45,416 bases of DNA from Actinomadura soli (lineage in GTDB: Bacteria; Actinomycetota; Actinomycetes; Streptosporangiales; Streptosporangiaceae), in contig NZ_VCKW01000040.1 in NCBI RefSeq assembly GCF_005889715.1, forward strand, positions 1 to 45,416, in the 5' to 3' direction. The notes below the pieces were generated by a model. It had not been told where the DNA came from. It ran no database searches and worked only from the letters and a program-made list of their open reading frames with translations. Numbering within the stretch: the stretch's first letter is position 1; each line of letters opens with the position of its first letter. Made by a program: the position numbers and the translations under genes. Below, one piece after another: positions 31,503 through 39,841 of the stretch.

Positions 31503-31922
31503 CAGGCCCTCTCCGAGATCGTCGAGGTCTGGTCGCCGTGATCATCACATTCGAGGGCCGCCCGGACAACATCGGTACTGACCCATTTTGATATTTAGGG
31601 TCATCTCATTCATGTGCGGCAGTGGGCCTTATTGATTTGTGCGCGCGGACGTTTGTTGTGGGCGGCTGGTTGTCTTGGTGTCCGGACATGGTCTTGGCCC
31701 CGTCATTGACCTGTGGTTCTCGCGACCGGCCACCCGTGATGCCCGGGAACGCCTTGATCGACTTCCCTTTTGATCGCATCGTGTTGATCGCATTGTCGAG
31801 AGCGTTTACTGCCCGTGTAAGCCACGTGCTTTGGGGTGATGTGGCGTGCTGCCGTCGTTGCCAACGACCGTTGACTTTTTCCGGCTCGGCTTATGTGGCC
31901 GTCCGTTGTTGTGGAGGAACTG
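31503..31922. promoter_or_regulatory. Divergent intergenic region of the toxin island, with TTGATCG repeats and a palindrome
   Basis: 420 bases between the propeller and RHS genes, with an AT-richer core around 31570-31640 and no gene. TTGATCG occurs three times, at 31754-31760, 31770-31776 and 31784-31790, the last two extended to TTGATCGCAT. A 15-base palindrome, GTCGTTGCCAACGAC, lies at 31854-31868, directly before TTGACT (31871-31876), a possible -35 for the RHS gene; TATGTG at 31892 is a weak -10 with a short spacing. The repeats may bind a regulator of either gene. Confidence 0.45.
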
Positions 31923-34900
31923 GTGAAGACCAAGGGCCGGAGGCATGTGCTCGGAATAGGGCGGCCGCTGCGGACCATGGCCGCCGGGATGACGGTCGTC
32001 CTGGCGGCGGGCCTGGCCACCGCGCCCGCCGCGCAGGCGGATCCACCGCATTCGGAACGTCCCACCGTCGCCGACCACGAACGCAAGGTCGACGGCAAGC
32101 AGCTCAAGGCCCGCCCGCGGACGCCCGACCCCGCGGGTAAACCTGCGCCTCCGGCCAGAGCGGCGTGGCCCAAGGCGGGCACCGCCGAAGTGGAGGTCTC
32201 GGGGCGGCAGGCGCGGAGCACCGGCTCTTCGGAGGGGTTGGCCCAGGCCAAGGGCCTGCCGGTCGCGCTGGCGTCCCCGGGACCGGCCTCGGGTGCCGCC
32301 CAGGCGGGTCCGGTATCGCGGGGGACGGTGAAGGTCGCGGTGCTGAACCGCGAGGCCGCCGGCCGGGCCGGGGTCGAGGGGCTGCTGTTCACCCTGACCC
32401 CCGCCGATGCGGGCGCGGCGGGACGCGTCGGAGTCCGCGTGGACTACGCGGCGTTCGCCCAAGCGTTCGGCGGCGCCTACGGCACCCGCCTGCGTCTGGC
32501 CCAATTGCCGGCCTGCGCCGTGACCACTCCGTCCAGGCCGGAATGCCGGGGCGTGACACCGCTGACCACCACCAACAACGGTGAAACTCATACCCTCACC
32601 GCGGATGTGGCCACCGCCCAGACCGGTCCGACGGTGCTGGCGGCGGTCGCCGCACCCGAAGGTTCACAAGGCGATTACTCGGCCACAAAGCTGGAGCCGT
32701 CCGCCACGTGGAAAACCTCGGGAAACACCGGTGATTTCACCTGGTCCTATCCACTCAGAGTGGCACCCGTGCCCGGTGAGCTCACGCCCGGCATCGCGCT
32801 GGCCTATTCGGCTCAAAGCGTCGACGGCCGGACGACCAACACCAACAGCCAGCCTTCCTGGGTCGGTGAAGGATTCGACTTCTGGCCCGGCTTCATCGAG
32901 CAGCGCTACAAGTCCTGTGCCGACGACGGTGCGCCCAAGAACGGCCAGGGCCAGTCGCCGGGGGATTTGTGCTGGGGCTATGAGAACGCGACCGTCACCT
33001 GGAACGGCAAGGGCGGTGAGTTGGTCAAGGCCGCCGACGGGACGTGGCGGCTGAAGAACGATGACGGCACCCGGTTCGAGAAGCTCCGCTCGTCCGAGAC
33101 CGGCAACGGCGACCACGAGGGCGAGTACTGGAAGGTCACGACGACCGACGGCACCCGCTACTTCTTCGGCAGGAACCGGCTGCCGGGCTGGGGTTCGGGC
33201 GGCCCGGAGAGCAAGTCCGCGTGGACGGTGCCGGTGTTCGGCGACGACGCGGGCGAGCCGTGCCACAAGGATTCGGGATTCGCCGACTCGTGGTGCCAGC
33301 AGGCGTGGCGCTGGAACCTCGACATGGTCGTCGACCCCAACGACAACGCCGCGATCTACCTGTACGAGCAGGAGACCAACCACTACGGCCGCAACCTCAA
33401 ACCGGAGGATGCCACCCCCTACACCCGCGGCGGCCACCTCAAGACGATCGAGTACGGGCTGCGCGGCTACAACGTCTTCGCCGGCGCGCCCCCCGCCCGG
33501 GTGCTGTTCGACACGGCCGAGCGGTGCGTCCCCACCGACACCTTCGACTGCGCCCCCGCCAAGATCGTCACCAGTCCCGAGCAGTGGCCGGACGTGCCAT
33601 GGGACATGAACTGCGCCGCCGGGACCCGGTGCGAGAGCGGGCACGGCTCGACCTCGCCCACCTTCTGGTCCCGGTACCGGCTCAAGAAGGTCACCACGCA
33701 GATCGCCGGGGCCCCCGGGTGGCCGTATCGGCCCGTCGACTCCTGGACGCTGGACCACCACTGGGGCGCCGTCAACGACGAGCGCGACCTCCTGCTCAAG
33801 GAGATCCAGCACACCGGGCTGGCCGGCCCGACCGCCGCCGACGACATCAAGCTGCCCAAGGTCACCTTCAACCACGAACCCAAGGCCAACCGCCTCGATC
33901 AGGCGGGTGACGGGCTGCCGTCCTACACCCGCTACCGGGTGAGCAAGATCTTCGATGAGTCCGGCGGCGAACTCGACATCGCCTACTCCGGCCCCGAATG
34001 CTCCCGGACAGCGCCGCCCACCCCGCACACCAACACCAAACGCTGCCACCCGTTGGTCTGGCACCAGTCCGGCCAGCCCACACCATTAACGGACTGGTTC
34101 AACAAGTACGTGGTCACCGCGGTGGTCCAGAAGGACCGCACCGGCCACGCCGCCGACATGGCCACCCGGTACGAGTACCTCGGCGGCGCCGCCTGGCATT
34201 ACGACGATGACGACGGGCTGACCCGGGAGAAGAACAAGACCTGGTCGCAATGGCGCGGCTACGGCCAGGTGCGCGTCACCACCGGCGGAACGGGCGACCC
34301 CAAGTCGCAGACAGACACCTACTACATGCGCGGCATGCACGGCGATCGCGCCGGACCCGACGGCGGCACCAGGAACGTCTCCGTCCCCGACGGCGAAGGC
34401 GGCACGCACACCGATCACGAGGGCCTGGACGGGTTCGCGCTGCGCACCGTCCAGTACACGGCACCCGGCGGATCCGTGCACGACAAGACCGTCCGCACCC
34501 CATGGCGTGTGGTCACCGCCACCCGTGAGCGTTCCTGGGGCACTGCCAACGCCACCGCGATCAAGGTGGACATCGCCCGCACGTGGACGGCAATGGACGG
34601 CGGCACCTGGCGCGAGACCAAGACCGACACCGACTACGAGACCCAGTTCATCGGCGTCGGACGCGTGAAGAGCGTCAACGACCTCGCTGACGTCGCCACC
34701 GCCACCGACGACCGGTGCACCCGTACCACCTACGCCGACAACGTCTACGCGCACATGCTCGACTTCCCGTCGCGGGTGGAGACGGTCTCGGTGGCCTGCA
34801 CGGCCGACGCCGACCGGACCAAGGACCTGAACTCCGACACGCGCACCTTCTACGACGGCGGTGGCTTCGAGGACGCGCCGACCAGGGGCAACGTCACCAA

Positions 34901-37900
34901 GACCGAAAAGGTCGCCGGACATGACGGTGACACGGCGCGATACGTCACCGAGGCGGAGATGACCTATGACGGGCACGGCCGTGAGCTGACCTCCACCGAC
35001 GCGCTGGGCCAGACCACCACCACCCGCTACACCGAGACCGCAGGCCTGACCACCCGGACGGCCGTCACCAGCCCGCCCGCCCGCGGCGGCGACTCCTCGT
35101 CCGCGCTGACCATGACCACCTGGCTCGAACCGGCCTGGGGAGATCCGATCGCCAAGGTCGATCCCAACGGGCTGCGCACCGACCTGGCCCGTGACGCGCT
35201 CGGCCGCCTCACCAAGGTGTGGCTGCCCGACCGCGCCAGGACCAGCGGCAAGGTTCCGAACCTGGAGTTCCAGTATCAGATCGCCGACGGGAAGATCGTC
35301 GCGGTCACCACAAAGACCGTCACCAACGACGAAAGCCAACGTCTCATCGTCGAGCTCTTTGACGGATGGCTGCGCACCCGGCAGACCCAGGCGGAAGGCC
35401 CCGGTGGCCGGCTGATCAGCGACACCTTCTACGACGACCGGGGCAACGCGGCCAAGGAGTACAACGTCTATCCGGCCGGCGGTGCGCCTCAACCGGCCCT
35501 GTTCGCTCCCGACGCCGGTGACGTGGAGACGCAGATCCATCACGCCTACGACGGGCTGGGCAGGCAGACCGTCCAACGGCTGCTGACCGGCGCCACCGGT
35601 GAGAAGTGGCGCACCACGACCAGCTACGGCGGCAACTGGACGGCCATCGACCCGCCGTCCGGAGGCGTGCCCAGCGCCGAGTACACCGACGCACGCGGGC
35701 AGGTCACCGAGCGCCGCCAGTACAGCGGCCCGGCGCCGAGCGGGACCTACGACGCCACGAAATACGCCTGGGACGGCGCCGGGCGGATGACCGGCATCAC
35801 CGACCCGTCCGGCAACACCTGGACCACCGCCTACGACGTGCGCGGCCGCAAGATCAAGACCATCGATCCCGACCGGGGCACGTCCACCTTCACCTACGAC
35901 GACCTCGACCGGGAGTCCTCCGCCACCGACGCGCGCGGGCGGACGCTGTTCACGACCTACGACGGGCTGAACCGCAAGACCAACATCCGCGAAGGTTCGG
36001 CGACCGGTGCCCGCCTGATCTCGTGGGGTTACGACACCGCGGCGCGCGGCAAGGGCAGGCCCGCCTCGGCCACCCGGCACCGCGACGATGGCGACTACAC
36101 CACCGGCATCACCGGCTACGACGTGCTGGGACGTACCGAGGGCGGCACTGTCACCATCCCGTCTTCACAGGGCGCCCTGGCGGGCAGCTACACCTTCGGC
36201 GAGACCTTCAACGCGGACGGCACCCCCGCCACCCGGACGCTGCCCGCCGCCGGAGGGCTGCCCGCCGAGACGCTGACGCTGTCCTACGACGGCTACCGGC
36301 ATCCCACCCGGCTGACCAGCGGACTCGGCACTTACGTCAATGCCGCCGAGTACACCCCGACCGGCAAACCCAAGCTGCTGGAGCTGGGCGCCACCGGCAA
36401 GCGCGTGTGGAACGCCCTGACCTGGCAGTACGGCACCCAGCGGCTGGAGTCGTCCCGCACCTACCGCGAAGGCGTCACCGGCGACCCCCGCCGCGCCGCC
36501 TACCGCTACGACGAGGCGGGCAACATCCTGTCGATCTCCGACATCTCAGCCGACGGCACCGACAACCAGTGCTACACCTACGACCACCTCCGCAGGCTCA
36601 CCGGCGCCTGGGCCGAAGGCGACACCACCTGCTCGGCCGCACCCTCCGCAGATGTCATCGGCGGGCCCGCGCCGTACTGGCGCACCTTCAACTACGACAA
36701 GGCCGGAAACCGCAAGACCGAGATCCGCCACGGCGTCGGCGGCAAACCCGACACCACCCGCACCTACGCCTACGCGCCGCCCGGCGAGGGCAACCGGCTC
36801 ACCAAGATCACCCAGGCCGGCGGCGACGGCGACCGCACCGACACCTTCACCTACGACGAGGTCGGCAACACCACCGGCCGAGCCCTCGGCACCGCGCGCC
36901 AGACGCTGGACTGGAACAGCGAGGGCGACCTGGCGACCGTCACCCAGAACGGCGCTACCACCCAGTTCATCAACGGCCCCGGCGGCGACCGGCTGATCCG
37001 CAAGGACCCCGGCGGCGCCACCCTCTACCTGCCCGGCATGGAGCTGCGCGCCGAGCCCGGGGCCACCACCCCGACGGCGACCCGCTACTACACCCACGGC
37101 GGCGAGACCGTCGCGCTTCGCACCACCACCGGCGGTCTCACCTTCCTGACCGGCGACCACCAGGGCACCGCCCAGGTCGCCGTCGCCGCCGCCGACCTGA
37201 AATCCACCGTCCGGCGCTTCACCCCCTTCGGGACCGAACGCGGCACGCCCGACGACGCCACCTGGCCGGACGACAAGGGCTTCGTCGGCGGCATCAAGGA
37301 CCCCACCGGCCTGACCCACCTCGGCGCCCGCGACTACGACCCCGAAACCGGCCGGTTCACCAGCGTGGACCCGGTCATGGACCCCGCGGACCCGCAGCAG
37401 CTCAACGGATACACCTACGCCAACAACACGCCGGTCGTCTCCAGCGACCCCGACGGTCTCCTCCGCGACGGCGGCGGCCAGTGCGGCACCATCCCGGAGA
37501 ACCCCTGCAGCGGCGGCCGAAGGTACAACCCGGGCGTCAGTAAGGCCTACGACAAGGCGGTGGAGAAGGCGGAGGAGACCCGCCGGAACACCCACGGCAC
37601 CGCGGCGTCCCAGTGCTACATGAACCCGCTGCGCGGAGGCTGCCCGATACCGGACGGCAAGCTGGGCGAGGCCGCAGTTATCGAACTCGCGCTCCAGCTG
37701 TATGAAAGGGGCCACTGGGGCTTCAAGAAGCGCAGCTTCAAAGAACAACTCTGGGATATGACCAAGTTCAGCGTACAGGTCTTGGTCTTTGTTTACGGCG
37801 GTCCCGAAGAGCTGGCTCTGGGAGCGATACTCAAGGGTCTGCAGCTGGCGCTGAGGTCGCGCAAGATAAGAAATCTGGCCGACAAGGCTCCGGACCTGCC

Positions 37901-38726
37901 CAAGTCCGATCGCCCGCCGCCCGGTGCTCCCAAGCCCCGATGCAGTAGCTTCCCACCGGGGACCAAGGTGCTGATGGCCGACGGCAGCCGCAAACCGATC
38001 CAGCAGCTGAAGCGCGGCGACAAGATCCTGGCGACCGACCCGGCCACTGGTGACACACGTCCACAGGTCGTCGTCGACACCATGACCAGCACCGGCGTCA
38101 GGACCATCATCCAGGTCACCGTCGACACCGACGGTGACCGCGGTGACAAGTCAGGCGTGGTGGTCGCCACCGACGAACACCCCTTCTGGGTCGCCGGCGA
38201 CCTCGACCGGTGGGTCCAGGCCAAGAACCTCAAGCCCGGGATGCGGCTCCGCACCAGCGCGGGCGCTCACGTCCAGGTCACCGCCCTCAAGAGCGGCGCA
38301 CGGCCGTTCCAGACCGTCCACAACCTCACCATCGCCAACACCCGCACCTACTACGCCCTGGCGGGCGGCACGCCGGTGCTGGTGCACAACTGCGGGGGCT
38401 GGGTGGACGGACACAGCCCCAACTGCCGCTGCGCGCATGGCGACGAGCCCATTCTCAACGACCCGCCGGTTACGGCGCCCGCCGATGAGCTCGATGATTT
38501 TACGGGTCACGCACTGCAGCGTCTTGAAGACCATGGGGTTTCGGCAGAGGACGCTCGGGCCGTCCTTGAGCGAGATCCTTTCTCCTACTACCATGAAGAT
38601 CAGTGGAAGTTGGGCTACTACGATCCTCAATCCAAAGTCTTTGTGGCGAAGACCATCGACGGAAATGTCAACACCGTGATAGTGAACGCGAGCCGGGCTT
38701 ATATCGACCGCCTTATGGGGGGCTGA
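31923..38726 (+). CDS. Secreted RHS-repeat polymorphic toxin with HINT domain and DUF4258-like C-terminal toxin
   Basis: 2267 residues from GTG 31923 (GGAGG five bases upstream). Order: Sec signal peptide (about 1-40, ending PAAQA); a SpvB/TcB-like wall-protein N-terminus with LAYSAQSVDGRTTNTNSQPSWVGEGFDFWPGFIEQRY; many YD/RHS repeats (YDxxGR, TYDDLDRESS, YTYDHLRRLTG) to about 1800; the RHS core box (ARDYDPETGRFTSVDPV... LNGYTYANNTPVVSSDPDG); a variable link with a hydrophobic stretch; a HINT domain from Cys2007 (CSSFPPGTKVLMADGS) to HN-Cys2157 (PVLVHNC) with DEHPFW inside; and a 110-residue tip. The tip (TGHALQRLEDHGVSAEDARAVLERD ... VFVAKTIDGNVNTVIVN) resembles DUF4258, a RelE-like TA toxin family. 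HINT autoproteolysis would free the tip. Antibacterial delivery is inferred. Confidence 0.88.
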   Translation: MKTKGRRHVLGIGRPLRTMAAGMTVVLAAGLATAPAAQADPPHSERPTVADHERKVDGKQLKARPRTPDPAGKPAPPARAAWPKAGTAEVEVSGRQARSTGSSEGLAQAKGLPVALASPGPASGAAQAGPVSRGTVKVAVLNREAAGRAGVEGLLFTLTPADAGAAGRVGVRVDYAAFAQAFGGAYGTRLRLAQLPACAVTTPSRPECRGVTPLTTTNNGETHTLTADVATAQTGPTVLAAVAAPEGSQGDYSATKLEPSATWKTSGNTGDFTWSYPLRVAPVPGELTPGIALAYSAQSVDGRTTNTNSQPSWVGEGFDFWPGFIEQRYKSCADDGAPKNGQGQSPGDLCWGYENATVTWNGKGGELVKAADGTWRLKNDDGTRFEKLRSSETGNGDHEGEYWKVTTTDGTRYFFGRNRLPGWGSGGPESKSAWTVPVFGDDAGEPCHKDSGFADSWCQQAWRWNLDMVVDPNDNAAIYLYEQETNHYGRNLKPEDATPYTRGGHLKTIEYGLRGYNVFAGAPPARVLFDTAERCVPTDTFDCAPAKIVTSPEQWPDVPWDMNCAAGTRCESGHGSTSPTFWSRYRLKKVTTQIAGAPGWPYRPVDSWTLDHHWGAVNDERDLLLKEIQHTGLAGPTAADDIKLPKVTFNHEPKANRLDQAGDGLPSYTRYRVSKIFDESGGELDIAYSGPECSRTAPPTPHTNTKRCHPLVWHQSGQPTPLTDWFNKYVVTAVVQKDRTGHAADMATRYEYLGGAAWHYDDDDGLTREKNKTWSQWRGYGQVRVTTGGTGDPKSQTDTYYMRGMHGDRAGPDGGTRNVSVPDGEGGTHTDHEGLDGFALRTVQYTAPGGSVHDKTVRTPWRVVTATRERSWGTANATAIKVDIARTWTAMDGGTWRETKTDTDYETQFIGVGRVKSVNDLADVATATDDRCTRTTYADNVYAHMLDFPSRVETVSVACTADADRTKDLNSDTRTFYDGGGFEDAPTRGNVTKTEKVAGHDGDTARYVTEAEMTYDGHGRELTSTDALGQTTTTRYTETAGLTTRTAVTSPPARGGDSSSALTMTTWLEPAWGDPIAKVDPNGLRTDLARDALGRLTKVWLPDRARTSGKVPNLEFQYQIADGKIVAVTTKTVTNDESQRLIVELFDGWLRTRQTQAEGPGGRLISDTFYDDRGNAAKEYNVYPAGGAPQPALFAPDAGDVETQIHHAYDGLGRQTVQRLLTGATGEKWRTTTSYGGNWTAIDPPSGGVPSAEYTDARGQVTERRQYSGPAPSGTYDATKYAWDGAGRMTGITDPSGNTWTTAYDVRGRKIKTIDPDRGTSTFTYDDLDRESSATDARGRTLFTTYDGLNRKTNIREGSATGARLISWGYDTAARGKGRPASATRHRDDGDYTTGITGYDVLGRTEGGTVTIPSSQGALAGSYTFGETFNADGTPATRTLPAAGGLPAETLTLSYDGYRHPTRLTSGLGTYVNAAEYTPTGKPKLLELGATGKRVWNALTWQYGTQRLESSRTYREGVTGDPRRAAYRYDEAGNILSISDISADGTDNQCYTYDHLRRLTGAWAEGDTTCSAAPSADVIGGPAPYWRTFNYDKAGNRKTEIRHGVGGKPDTTRTYAYAPPGEGNRLTKITQAGGDGDRTDTFTYDEVGNTTGRALGTARQTLDWNSEGDLATVTQNGATTQFINGPGGDRLIRKDPGGATLYLPGMELRAEPGATTPTATRYYTHGGETVALRTTTGGLTFLTGDHQGTAQVAVAAADLKSTVRRFTPFGTERGTPDDATWPDDKGFVGGIKDPTGLTHLGARDYDPETGRFTSVDPVMDPADPQQLNGYTYANNTPVVSSDPDGLLRDGGGQCGTIPENPCSGGRRYNPGVSKAYDKAVEKAEETRRNTHGTAASQCYMNPLRGGCPIPDGKLGEAAVIELALQLYERGHWGFKKRSFKEQLWDMTKFSVQVLVFVYGGPEELALGAILKGLQLALRSRKIRNLADKAPDLPKSDRPPPGAPKPRCSSFPPGTKVLMADGSRKPIQQLKRGDKILATDPATGDTRPQVVVDTMTSTGVRTIIQVTVDTDGDRGDKSGVVVATDEHPFWVAGDLDRWVQAKNLKPGMRLRTSAGAHVQVTALKSGARPFQTVHNLTIANTRTYYALAGGTPVLVHNCGGWVDGHSPNCRCAHGDEPILNDPPVTAPADELDDFTGHALQRLEDHGVSAEDARAVLERDPFSYYHEDQWKLGYYDPQSKVFVAKTIDGNVNTVIVNASRAYIDRLMGG
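38394..38726 (+). other. Toxin tip: DUF4258-like domain after the HINT cleavage site
   Basis: Codons 2158-2267 of the RHS protein. After the VHNC junction there is a short Cys/His linker (SPNCRCAHGD), then an alpha-beta domain: helix HALQRLEDHGVSAEDARAVLERD, then beta strands YYHEDQWKLGYYD, SKVFVAKTI and VNTVIVNAS. His and Arg of the first helix and the strand order are as in DUF4258/BrnT-RelE-like folds. Base composition falls visibly below that of the RHS body from about 38470 onward, as expected for a swapped tip. Confidence 0.6.
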
Positions 38727-38728
38727 CC

Positions 38729-38971
38729 GTGGTGGACGTCAGGGTTACCTATGATCAGGTAGCAAATGCGGCGTACGTCGATCTGGCCAATCGAAAGGCG
38801 GGCCAACGGGTGGCGCACATGTACCCCTGCGACCCGGTCGAGGTCGGAGGAATGATCAATCTCGATTTCGACGAGGACGGCCGCCTCATCGGCATAGAAG
38901 TCCTGGCGGCCAACAAGAAACTGCCTCAACGGCTGATCGACGCGGCGGAACGAATTGACCGCAAAAAATGA
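38729..38971 (+). CDS. DUF2283 protein, probable immunity protein for the RHS toxin
   Basis: 80 residues from GTG 38729, two bases after the toxin stop, with GGGGGG six bases upstream inside the toxin gene. VTYDQVANAAYVDLANRKAG and INLDFDEDGRLIGIEVLAANKKL are the two halves of the DUF2283 signature (YDxxADAxYI ... DxDEDGRLVGIEIL). DUF2283 proteins are small antitoxin-like partners commonly found beside DUF4258 genes; here the pair has the tight toxin/immunity layout of polymorphic toxins. It is cytoplasmic, with no signal peptide. Direct binding to the tip is inferred. Confidence 0.82.
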   Translation: MVDVRVTYDQVANAAYVDLANRKAGQRVAHMYPCDPVEVGGMINLDFDEDGRLIGIEVLAANKKLPQRLIDAAERIDRKK

Positions 38972-38981
38972 GTGACCGCGC

Positions 38982-39109
38982 ACCGGCACGTATGCCCGCG
39001 CTCTGACCGTGCAGGCCGGGGCGCATCGCTCCTCGTCCACAACTACGGCCGCGAGGAGGACCGGCCGGGTCCCCTCAATCCCGGCCGACCTCCCGCGCCC
39101 TCCACCTAG
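38982..39109 (+). pseudogene. Remnant of a displaced HINT tail and start of an older toxin tip
   Basis: Two frames joined by one shift reproduce the end of a HINT domain: TGTYARALTVQAG from 38982, then ASLLVHNYGREEDRPGPLNP to a TAG at 39107-39109. The intact gene has NTRTYYALAGGTPVLVHNCG at the equivalent place; VHNY replaces VHNC. Nothing of the RHS core is repeated, and the following tip is only about 20 residues. It lies ten bases after the DUF2283 stop, just before two more immunity-like genes. Confidence 0.7.
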
Positions 39110-39150
39110 GGCTGTGCGCAGCTTCCCAGCCGAATGGGGATGAGCGGCCG

Positions 39151-39567
39151 ATGAGCGCCTCCGGAGTCGGACCGTTCGAGAATGATGATGCCCAGGACTT
39201 CAAGGACGAACTCTTCGAAGCGTCCGAAGGCGAACGAAGCAACATGGTGAGGGAAGTGCTGCAACGTGTTGCGAGCATCCCGGCGGACTCATTTCTTGAT
39301 CGAGAGTTCGCCGAACCGGCAGTAGCGGCGGCAGCTCTTGTCTCGGCAAGTATCCGAGGAGACGAGGCGACCTTCGAGGACGCCAAATTGCCGATCCCTC
39401 CGCTGGACTGGTCCAGTGACTTGTGCCGCCTGGCCCTTACCGCTTTGAGAAAAGTCGTTCGTGAAAACTCCGAGATCTGTGCGGAATGGTTTGAGGTTGG
39501 CTTGGGAGAGGAATGGAAGAGTGGTGTCGACACCCTCATGGAGCAGCTCTCTCAAGGCATCGAGTGA
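39151..39567 (+). CDS. DUF4259 domain protein, probable orphan immunity protein
   Basis: 138 residues, acidic. The N-terminus, GVGPFENDDAQDFKDELFE, is the DUF4259 hallmark (GxGPFDNDxAxDFxxEL). The rest is helical (AEPAVAAAALVSASIRGD, WSSDLCRLALTALRKVVREN). DUF4259 genes are often found singly or near polymorphic toxins; here it follows the displaced HINT remnant, so it is plausibly immunity to the lost toxin. Ribosome binding is weak (GGGGATGAG upstream). GC content is lower than in the flanking chromosome. Confidence 0.72.
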   Translation: MSASGVGPFENDDAQDFKDELFEASEGERSNMVREVLQRVASIPADSFLDREFAEPAVAAAALVSASIRGDEATFEDAKLPIPPLDWSSDLCRLALTALRKVVRENSEICAEWFEVGLGEEWKSGVDTLMEQLSQGIE

Positions 39568-39580
39568 GGGTCGTGCCCGG

Positions 39581-39841
39581 ATGGACGTCAACAAGGTCCT
39601 CGTTCGCGCGTTCGTCAGCCTTGTCGTCTCCATAGACCTGACGGACGATGAAGACATCGACCCGGATATCGCAACGGACATCCTTGAACCTGCCGCCGCC
39701 CTCTTCCGCGAGCTCACGGAGGAGGGGCGCAGGGAGGTTACCTCCCTGATTCTTGAATGCGCCGAACTGGAAGAGGACCCGGTGCGGAAGAGGTCTACCC
39801 TGGACCTCCCAGGAGATATCGGCCTTCTCGACGAAGACTGA
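39581..39841 (+). CDS. Small acidic protein, candidate immunity protein
   Basis: 86 residues from ATG 39581, 13 bases after the DUF4259 gene. It is all-helical and very acidic (VVSIDLTDDEDIDPDIATDILEPAAALFRELTEEGRREVTSLILECAELEEDP). No family name can be given. Length, charge and place in the toxin island suit an immunity protein. The frame reading in from 39461 overlaps DUF4259 and is not used. 39842-40084 downstream holds no gene. Confidence 0.65.
   Translation: MDVNKVLVRAFVSLVVSIDLTDDEDIDPDIATDILEPAAALFRELTEEGRREVTSLILECAELEEDPVRKRSTLDLPGDIGLLDED

Follow-up and report, generated by a model that had tools for sequence, protein, structure and literature searches.

According to the accessible part of a survey published in 2012, RHS and HINT domains are components of toxin architectures, BECR-fold tips are common to the toxins of toxin-antitoxin (TA) modules, and such modules are usually arranged antitoxin-first (PMC3482391). 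In the accessible text of two further sources, Escherichia coli CdiA-CT type 8 is listed as DUF4258 (PF14076) and as "tRNase (?)" (PMC11630599), and the BECR-fold families of TA toxins include DUF4258, with activity not known (PMC11980606). Neither DUF4258 nor DUF2283 was found in the first 300,000 of the 357,715 characters of the survey text (PMC3482391), and a literature search that had most subscription papers outside its scope returned no paper naming DUF2283, DUF2283 with DUF4258, or the pair. Here, a locus of Actinomadura soli is compared with these systems. The window, i.e., the whole 45,416-nucleotide stretch analyzed (contig NZ_VCKW01000040.1 of a 9.0 Mb assembly in 622 contigs), encodes an RHS-repeat protein with a HINT domain and a C-terminal tip (31893..38726; 2277 amino acids; alternative start 31923) followed by a DUF2283 gene for a proposed immunity protein (38729..38971; 80 amino acids, GTG start); these and all features below lie on the plus strand. 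The anatomy of the locus, its gene pairing, modular exchange, and domain kinship were computed in this analysis. The locus is probably an RHS-HINT polymorphic toxin, with an exported shell, a HINT-released DUF4258-like RNase tip, and DUF2283 immunity, the last two in one cassette kin to TA-like pairs.

The tip (residues 2167-2277, the last 111 amino acids of the RHS protein) consists of a Cys/His linker and an 80-amino-acid toxin-like core, and with the DUF2283 gene it forms one exchangeable cassette that moves between different carrier proteins. The TGA of the RHS open reading frame (ORF) ends at 38726 and the GTG of the next gene lies at 38729, confirming the 2-nt gap of the first-pass annotation, and the encoded protein belongs to DUF2283 (PF10049; 47.1 bits, cut-off 23; E 2.7e-12). 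The next gene passes this Pfam cut-off in 15/15 window-type tip loci (the window plus eleven loci from named genomes and three others) and the adjacency is therefore not due to chance. These loci comprise nine RHS proteins, one HINT protein that begins with a signal-like stretch and has no RHS match (G661), and five orphan or broken pieces (L040, L043, L046, L048, and L088). The A1 profile matched at least 4 of the 394 class genomes, the window included, with DUF2283 adjacent in each. A contig of the same-genus genome G1011 has the same tip as one of Actinomadura darangshiensis.

Tip and immunity distances were correlated among the nine full RHS proteins (r 0.72, p 0.001), and still so after controlling for the shell (r 0.69); the corresponding values were -0.50 for tip and shell and -0.30 for immunity and shell. 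In this set the tip averaged 63% identity, the immunity protein 62%, HINT 41%, and a shell stretch of 450 residues 32%. In a wider comparison made without L046, L048, and the L034 pair, the tip-immunity correlation was 0.90 over 26 pairs, 0.82 in 13 window-type pairs, and 0.55 in the 13 others. The same-genus genome G1027 carries an orthologous shell, aligned in a single plus-strand blastn match (31959-38390, 82% nucleotide identity) that ends at the last base of the HINT Asn codon, beyond which lie an unrelated tip that matches nothing in Pfam and a gene matching SUKH-3 below threshold. Since tip and immunity co-diverge apart from the shell and the G1027 shell carries another tip, the two constitute an exchangeable toxin-immunity cassette; the same shell with different tips, a hallmark of RHS-HINT polymorphic toxins, was observed in one relative, G1027. 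This comparison places tip exchange in actinomycete RHS genes at the codon of the expected HINT cut, the predicted cleavage junction being Asn2166-Cys2167 (38388..38393).

The PT-HINT domain runs from Cys2017 to His2165-Asn2166 (37941..38390), with a Pfam match at 37971-38390 (residues 2027-2166, E 1.6e-14, 54.8 bits against a cut-off of 27.7). Cys2017, TDEHPF from residue 2093, and His2165-Asn2166 followed by Cys2167 were all found, and from general HINT and intein knowledge we take these to be the catalytic residues; the complete HINT domain previously proposed before the tip is thus borne out. The ORF at 31893-38726 is open throughout, giving residue numbers 10 higher than in the first-pass annotation, which used the 2267-amino-acid form (start 31923) that is also database version P0013. 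Read by eye, the N-terminus resembles a signal peptide (RPLRTMAAGMTVVLAAGLATAPAAQA-DPP, 31893..32040), and the RHS shell is probably exported. RHS/YD repeats and the Rhs-associated core occupy residues 1293-1856 (35769..37460, best stretches of the profile matches), the RHS repeats scoring E 8.5e-15 (55.2 bits against 22) and Rhs_assc_core E 8.7e-15, above its curated cut-off. These scores uphold the assignment as an RHS protein, but the accompanying SpvB label is a sub-threshold match, at 15.1 of the 22 bits of the Pfam cut-off. A Pfam scan of the RHS protein at E up to 1 contained no haemagglutinin repeats, and the RHS and HINT domains found do not correspond to the filamentous haemagglutinin architecture of CdiA in two-partner contact-dependent inhibition (CDI). 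RHS repeats and PT-HINT, both above cut-off, are the combination of an RHS-HINT polymorphic toxin; a type II TA module consists of two small proteins without an export part, whereas the toxin part here is the end of a 2277-amino-acid protein. Among the matches listed, all 14 long non-window relatives carried both PF07591 and PF05593.

The core of the tip (38484..38723) is DUF4258-like, with a predicted helix-helix-four strands-helix order. Twenty core positions are invariant in 12/12 aligned tips, and the invariant residues include His2206, His2234, Lys2239, Lys2253, Thr2254, Asp2256, and Asn2260. The first-pass annotation had likened the tip to DUF4258. Because it scored 17.0 bits against the Pfam cut-off of 25 (E 0.0077), it is named DUF4258-like rather than a member; the best of the scanned window-type tips (L087) reached 24.5 bits. 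With the tip profile, hhalign gave 93.1-96.6% against DUF4258, although the aligned part was limited to 26-32 columns in the helical half, and 96.6% against standalone DUF2283-paired DUF4258 (control 0.3%). The helical half of the window tip is thereby linked by profile to DUF2283-paired small DUF4258 proteins. Of the RelE/BrnT folds suggested earlier, BrnT membership was rejected (Pfam E 0.15 only), while the predicted tip fold gave weak matches of the BECR RNase type to colicin E5/D, CdiA-CT, and HigB, and 13 of the 50 fold matches listed were colicin E5/D, CDI, or HigB toxin entries (including 3ao9, presumably colicin E5). Another DUF4258 tip of the window genome (E 1.2e-7) matched Colicin_E5 just below the cut-off (E 4.5e-5, 24.1 of 25 bits). 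By sequence, neither the tip profile (best E 0.3) nor DUF2283 (best E 0.44) had a solved relative, the predicted DUF2283 fold had no clear structural match, and the tip had no match at E 1e-3 among 72,556 plasmid records. Of 14 control genomes, those of Bacillus subtilis, Corynebacterium glutamicum, and Methanocaldococcus jannaschii also contain DUF2283.

The linker Cys2167-x6-His2174-x3-Cys2178-x-Cys2180 (38391..38432) is a possible metal-binding connector. The same Cys-His-Cys-Cys arrangement follows the HINT Asn in most window-type tips and in one whose toxin core is of another type (L165/L193, G1020), and because it also precedes that different core, the linker may be a separate module.

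In the wider family, DUF2283 was found at 32 sites in 28 of 394 Actinomycetes genomes, and reading the upstream side of all 32 placed a DUF4258-like domain directly upstream at 17. Ten of these partners passed the Pfam cut-off as cut-out domains, four matched at E 3e-5 to 0.0065, and three were assigned by A1 kinship. The 17 pairs split into seven standalone small proteins, nine large carriers, and one orphan tip (G743). Among the carriers, the window, C304, G486, and G461 are RHS proteins, G661 is a HINT protein, G500 and G673 have sub-threshold WXG100_2 matches, and G706 and G553 have signal-like stretches recognized by eye. The G500 and G673 proteins (L085 and L098) end in DUF4258-like tips with DUF2283 behind and are perhaps a type VII secretion version. 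The standalone pairs are toxin-first, and in one (L099, G749:C9) the second protein joins DUF2283 to HTH_17, a layout like that of an autoregulator. A 497-amino-acid protein before the DUF2283 gene of L111 was excluded from the pair count, having no DUF4258 match, and a second DUF2283 half suspected in the L097 partner was rejected, as Pfam showed one stretch.

Pfam DUF4258 occurred in 68/396 phylum genomes; at 30 DUF4258 loci taken from the best scorers, DUF2283 lay within 1.5 kb at only two, and a CxxC...CxxC, MqsA-like reading frame lay just behind at 21, this motif being the basis, without a family scan, of the "mqsA" label on the tree. In a 55-row tree (90 columns, long branches; L046 and L048 left out, and the orphan rhs_L088 labelled with the RHS group), one branch with support 98/95 split the 27 DUF2283-paired rows from the 28 others, which were the best Pfam DUF4258 scorers and mostly of other classes, so that partner and taxonomy are confounded. 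Tips required two changes on this tree, and a single tip clade was rejected by the approximately unbiased (AU) test (p 0.032). Together, the profiles and the tree are good evidence for placing the cassette in a DUF4258-DUF2283 lineage that also exists as small TA-like pairs.

We infer the following course of export, HINT cleavage, toxicity, RNase activity, and binding. The RHS shell would be exported with its small C-terminal toxin, and HINT would cut after Asn2166 to release the tip. The tip would then enter a neighbouring cell and, judging by its modelled fold, act most likely as a metal-independent BECR-type RNase, while the DUF2283 protein, proposed as the immunity protein, would bind the tip and protect the producer.

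The origin of the cassette is more tentative. An account that falls somewhat short of probable is that actinobacteria at least twice took up, as one unit, a full intracellular DUF4258-like/DUF2283 TA pair, one lineage of which is still HTH-fused, and that it became the tip and immunity of RHS-HINT, signal-bearing, and WXG-type exported proteins, its antitoxin family also serving as a new family of immunity proteins and supplying orphan immunity genes. The first-pass annotation had likewise proposed recruitment of a TA pair; the kinship to standalone pairs (the hhalign score, the 98/95 branch, and the DUF2283-HTH_17 fusion) sustains that part, while the direction from TA pair to exported toxin is favoured, inferred, and unproven. 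The opposite course, in which an ordinary polymorphic-toxin tip came first and the standalone DUF4258-DUF2283 pairs derive from released or orphaned cassettes turned TA-like, is somewhat unlikely. Two observations nevertheless weigh against recruitment: shell-less orphan or broken tip-DUF2283 pieces are common (5/15 window-type loci), and standalone pairs are toxin-first like polymorphic toxins, while classical TA modules are usually antitoxin-first, as the accessible survey text has it (PMC3482391). On the other side, DUF4258 proteins that lack a DUF2283 partner are mostly small and standalone across the phylum sample and lie beyond the 98/95 branch, for which reasons standalone would be the simpler ancestral state; the two changes required for tips, with one tip clade rejected, and the antitoxin-like design of the DUF2283-HTH fusion also argue for recruitment.

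The activity of the tip was weighed in the same way. Toxicity by a non-RNase mechanism, with DUF2283 still the immunity protein and the BECR likeness a chance product of a small alpha-beta fold, is unlikely: weak as the structural matches are, the 13 toxin entries among the fold matches listed, the near-threshold Colicin_E5 match of the sister tip, and the classification of DUF4258 as a BECR family in the accessible text of PMC11980606 all point to an RNase. It is very improbable that the RHS protein is a surface adhesin or structural protein with an inactive tip and an unrelated DUF2283 neighbour. The activity of the tip is a sequence-based prediction and some copies are broken (L048), which would suit such a role, but tip and DUF2283 co-diverge and adjoin in every window-type locus despite differing shells, the invariant core positions are kept throughout the aligned tips, and the G1027 shell bears another tip with another downstream gene. 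An exported RHS-HINT toxin with DUF2283 immunity remains the preferred explanation, held slightly less firmly because 7/17 counted pairs lack an above-cut-off DUF4258 match.

Downstream of the DUF2283 gene lies the decayed 3' end of another stretch coding for a HINT tip (LLVHN-YGREEDRPGPLNPGRPPAPST, then a stop; 39029..39109), from its sequence a probable relic of a displaced tip. The motif [LIV]VHN occurs only twice in the six frames of the window, at 38379 and 39032. In 65 same-genus genomes, the relic stretch (38990-39115) had, besides the window, only DNA matches of at most 49 bases, and none of six loci read among these matches contained a HINT end. A DUF4259 gene (39151..39567, 138 amino acids) follows, weakly suggested as a leftover immunity gene of the displaced tip. 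DUF4259 matches occurred in 51/298 family genomes, but DUF4259 as a usual RHS immunity gene was rejected: because a HINT-type end lay within 1.5 kb upstream in only 1/24 non-window loci (G539), its role in the window is a guess. In that locus (L152/L115, G539:C4), the RHS-HINT tip matches GIY-YIG below threshold (E 0.031) and has the DUF4259 gene directly behind. Past the DUF4259 gene of the window, an 86-amino-acid ORF (39581-39841) matched nothing in Pfam or NCBIfam at E up to 1.

Further copies of the cassette and its parts were also recorded. The orphan tip-DUF2283 cassettes L043, L046, and L088/L153 (three genomes) have common upstream DNA with GACCTGCGAAAACGCAGGT just before the remaining HINT end, and this element contains a 7-nt perfect inverted repeat, possibly a recombination or terminator site. 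At L154 (G651:C34, 8070-8157 and 8275-8520), an orphan window-type DUF2283 gene with no tip seen upstream lies 117 bp past a tRNA-Leu gene and is 62% identical over 77 residues to that of the window. In the same genus, L199 (G1021) is an RHS-HINT gene with a DUF4258 tip (E 8.5e-9) and, by eye, a DUF2283-like frame behind.

The following comparisons draw on the accessible parts of the cited sources. Orphan Rhs-CT/immunity pairs of enterobacteria are alike in having displaced tip fragments plus an immunity gene behind the main rhs gene, but the window relic is degraded, and the orphan DUF4258-like cassettes sit in other genomes (PMC3967940). Colicin E5 and colicin D tRNase domains resemble the tip in predicted helix/strand arrangement, with weak structural matches, and the sister tip comes close to the threshold by sequence; the window tip itself has no significant match. 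CdiA-CT type 8 shares DUF4258 as a delivered tip, but belongs to two-partner CDI without a HINT-RHS shell (PMC11630599). DUF4258 TA toxins bring the same domain family in small TA modules; those modules are antitoxin-first, with DUF4258-MqsA fusions, whereas the DUF2283-paired subgroup is toxin-first and separate on the tree (PMC11980606). The related toxin-antidote pairs, found standing alone, at the ends of RHS-HINT proteins, and on carriers of the WXG type, offer a natural experiment, and for DUF2283, a family of unknown function, a role as antitoxin and immunity protein can now be put to the test. Closest are the RHS/WapA-type PT-HINT polymorphic toxins, alike in RHS shell, HINT, C-terminal toxin, immunity in the next gene, and exchangeable tips, to which the window adds a defined tip-immunity pair and, from one comparison, the exchange codon (PMC3482391). 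The kind of system is thus known, and the pair as a toxin-immunity family, its several carrier types, and the exchange point appear to be new details.
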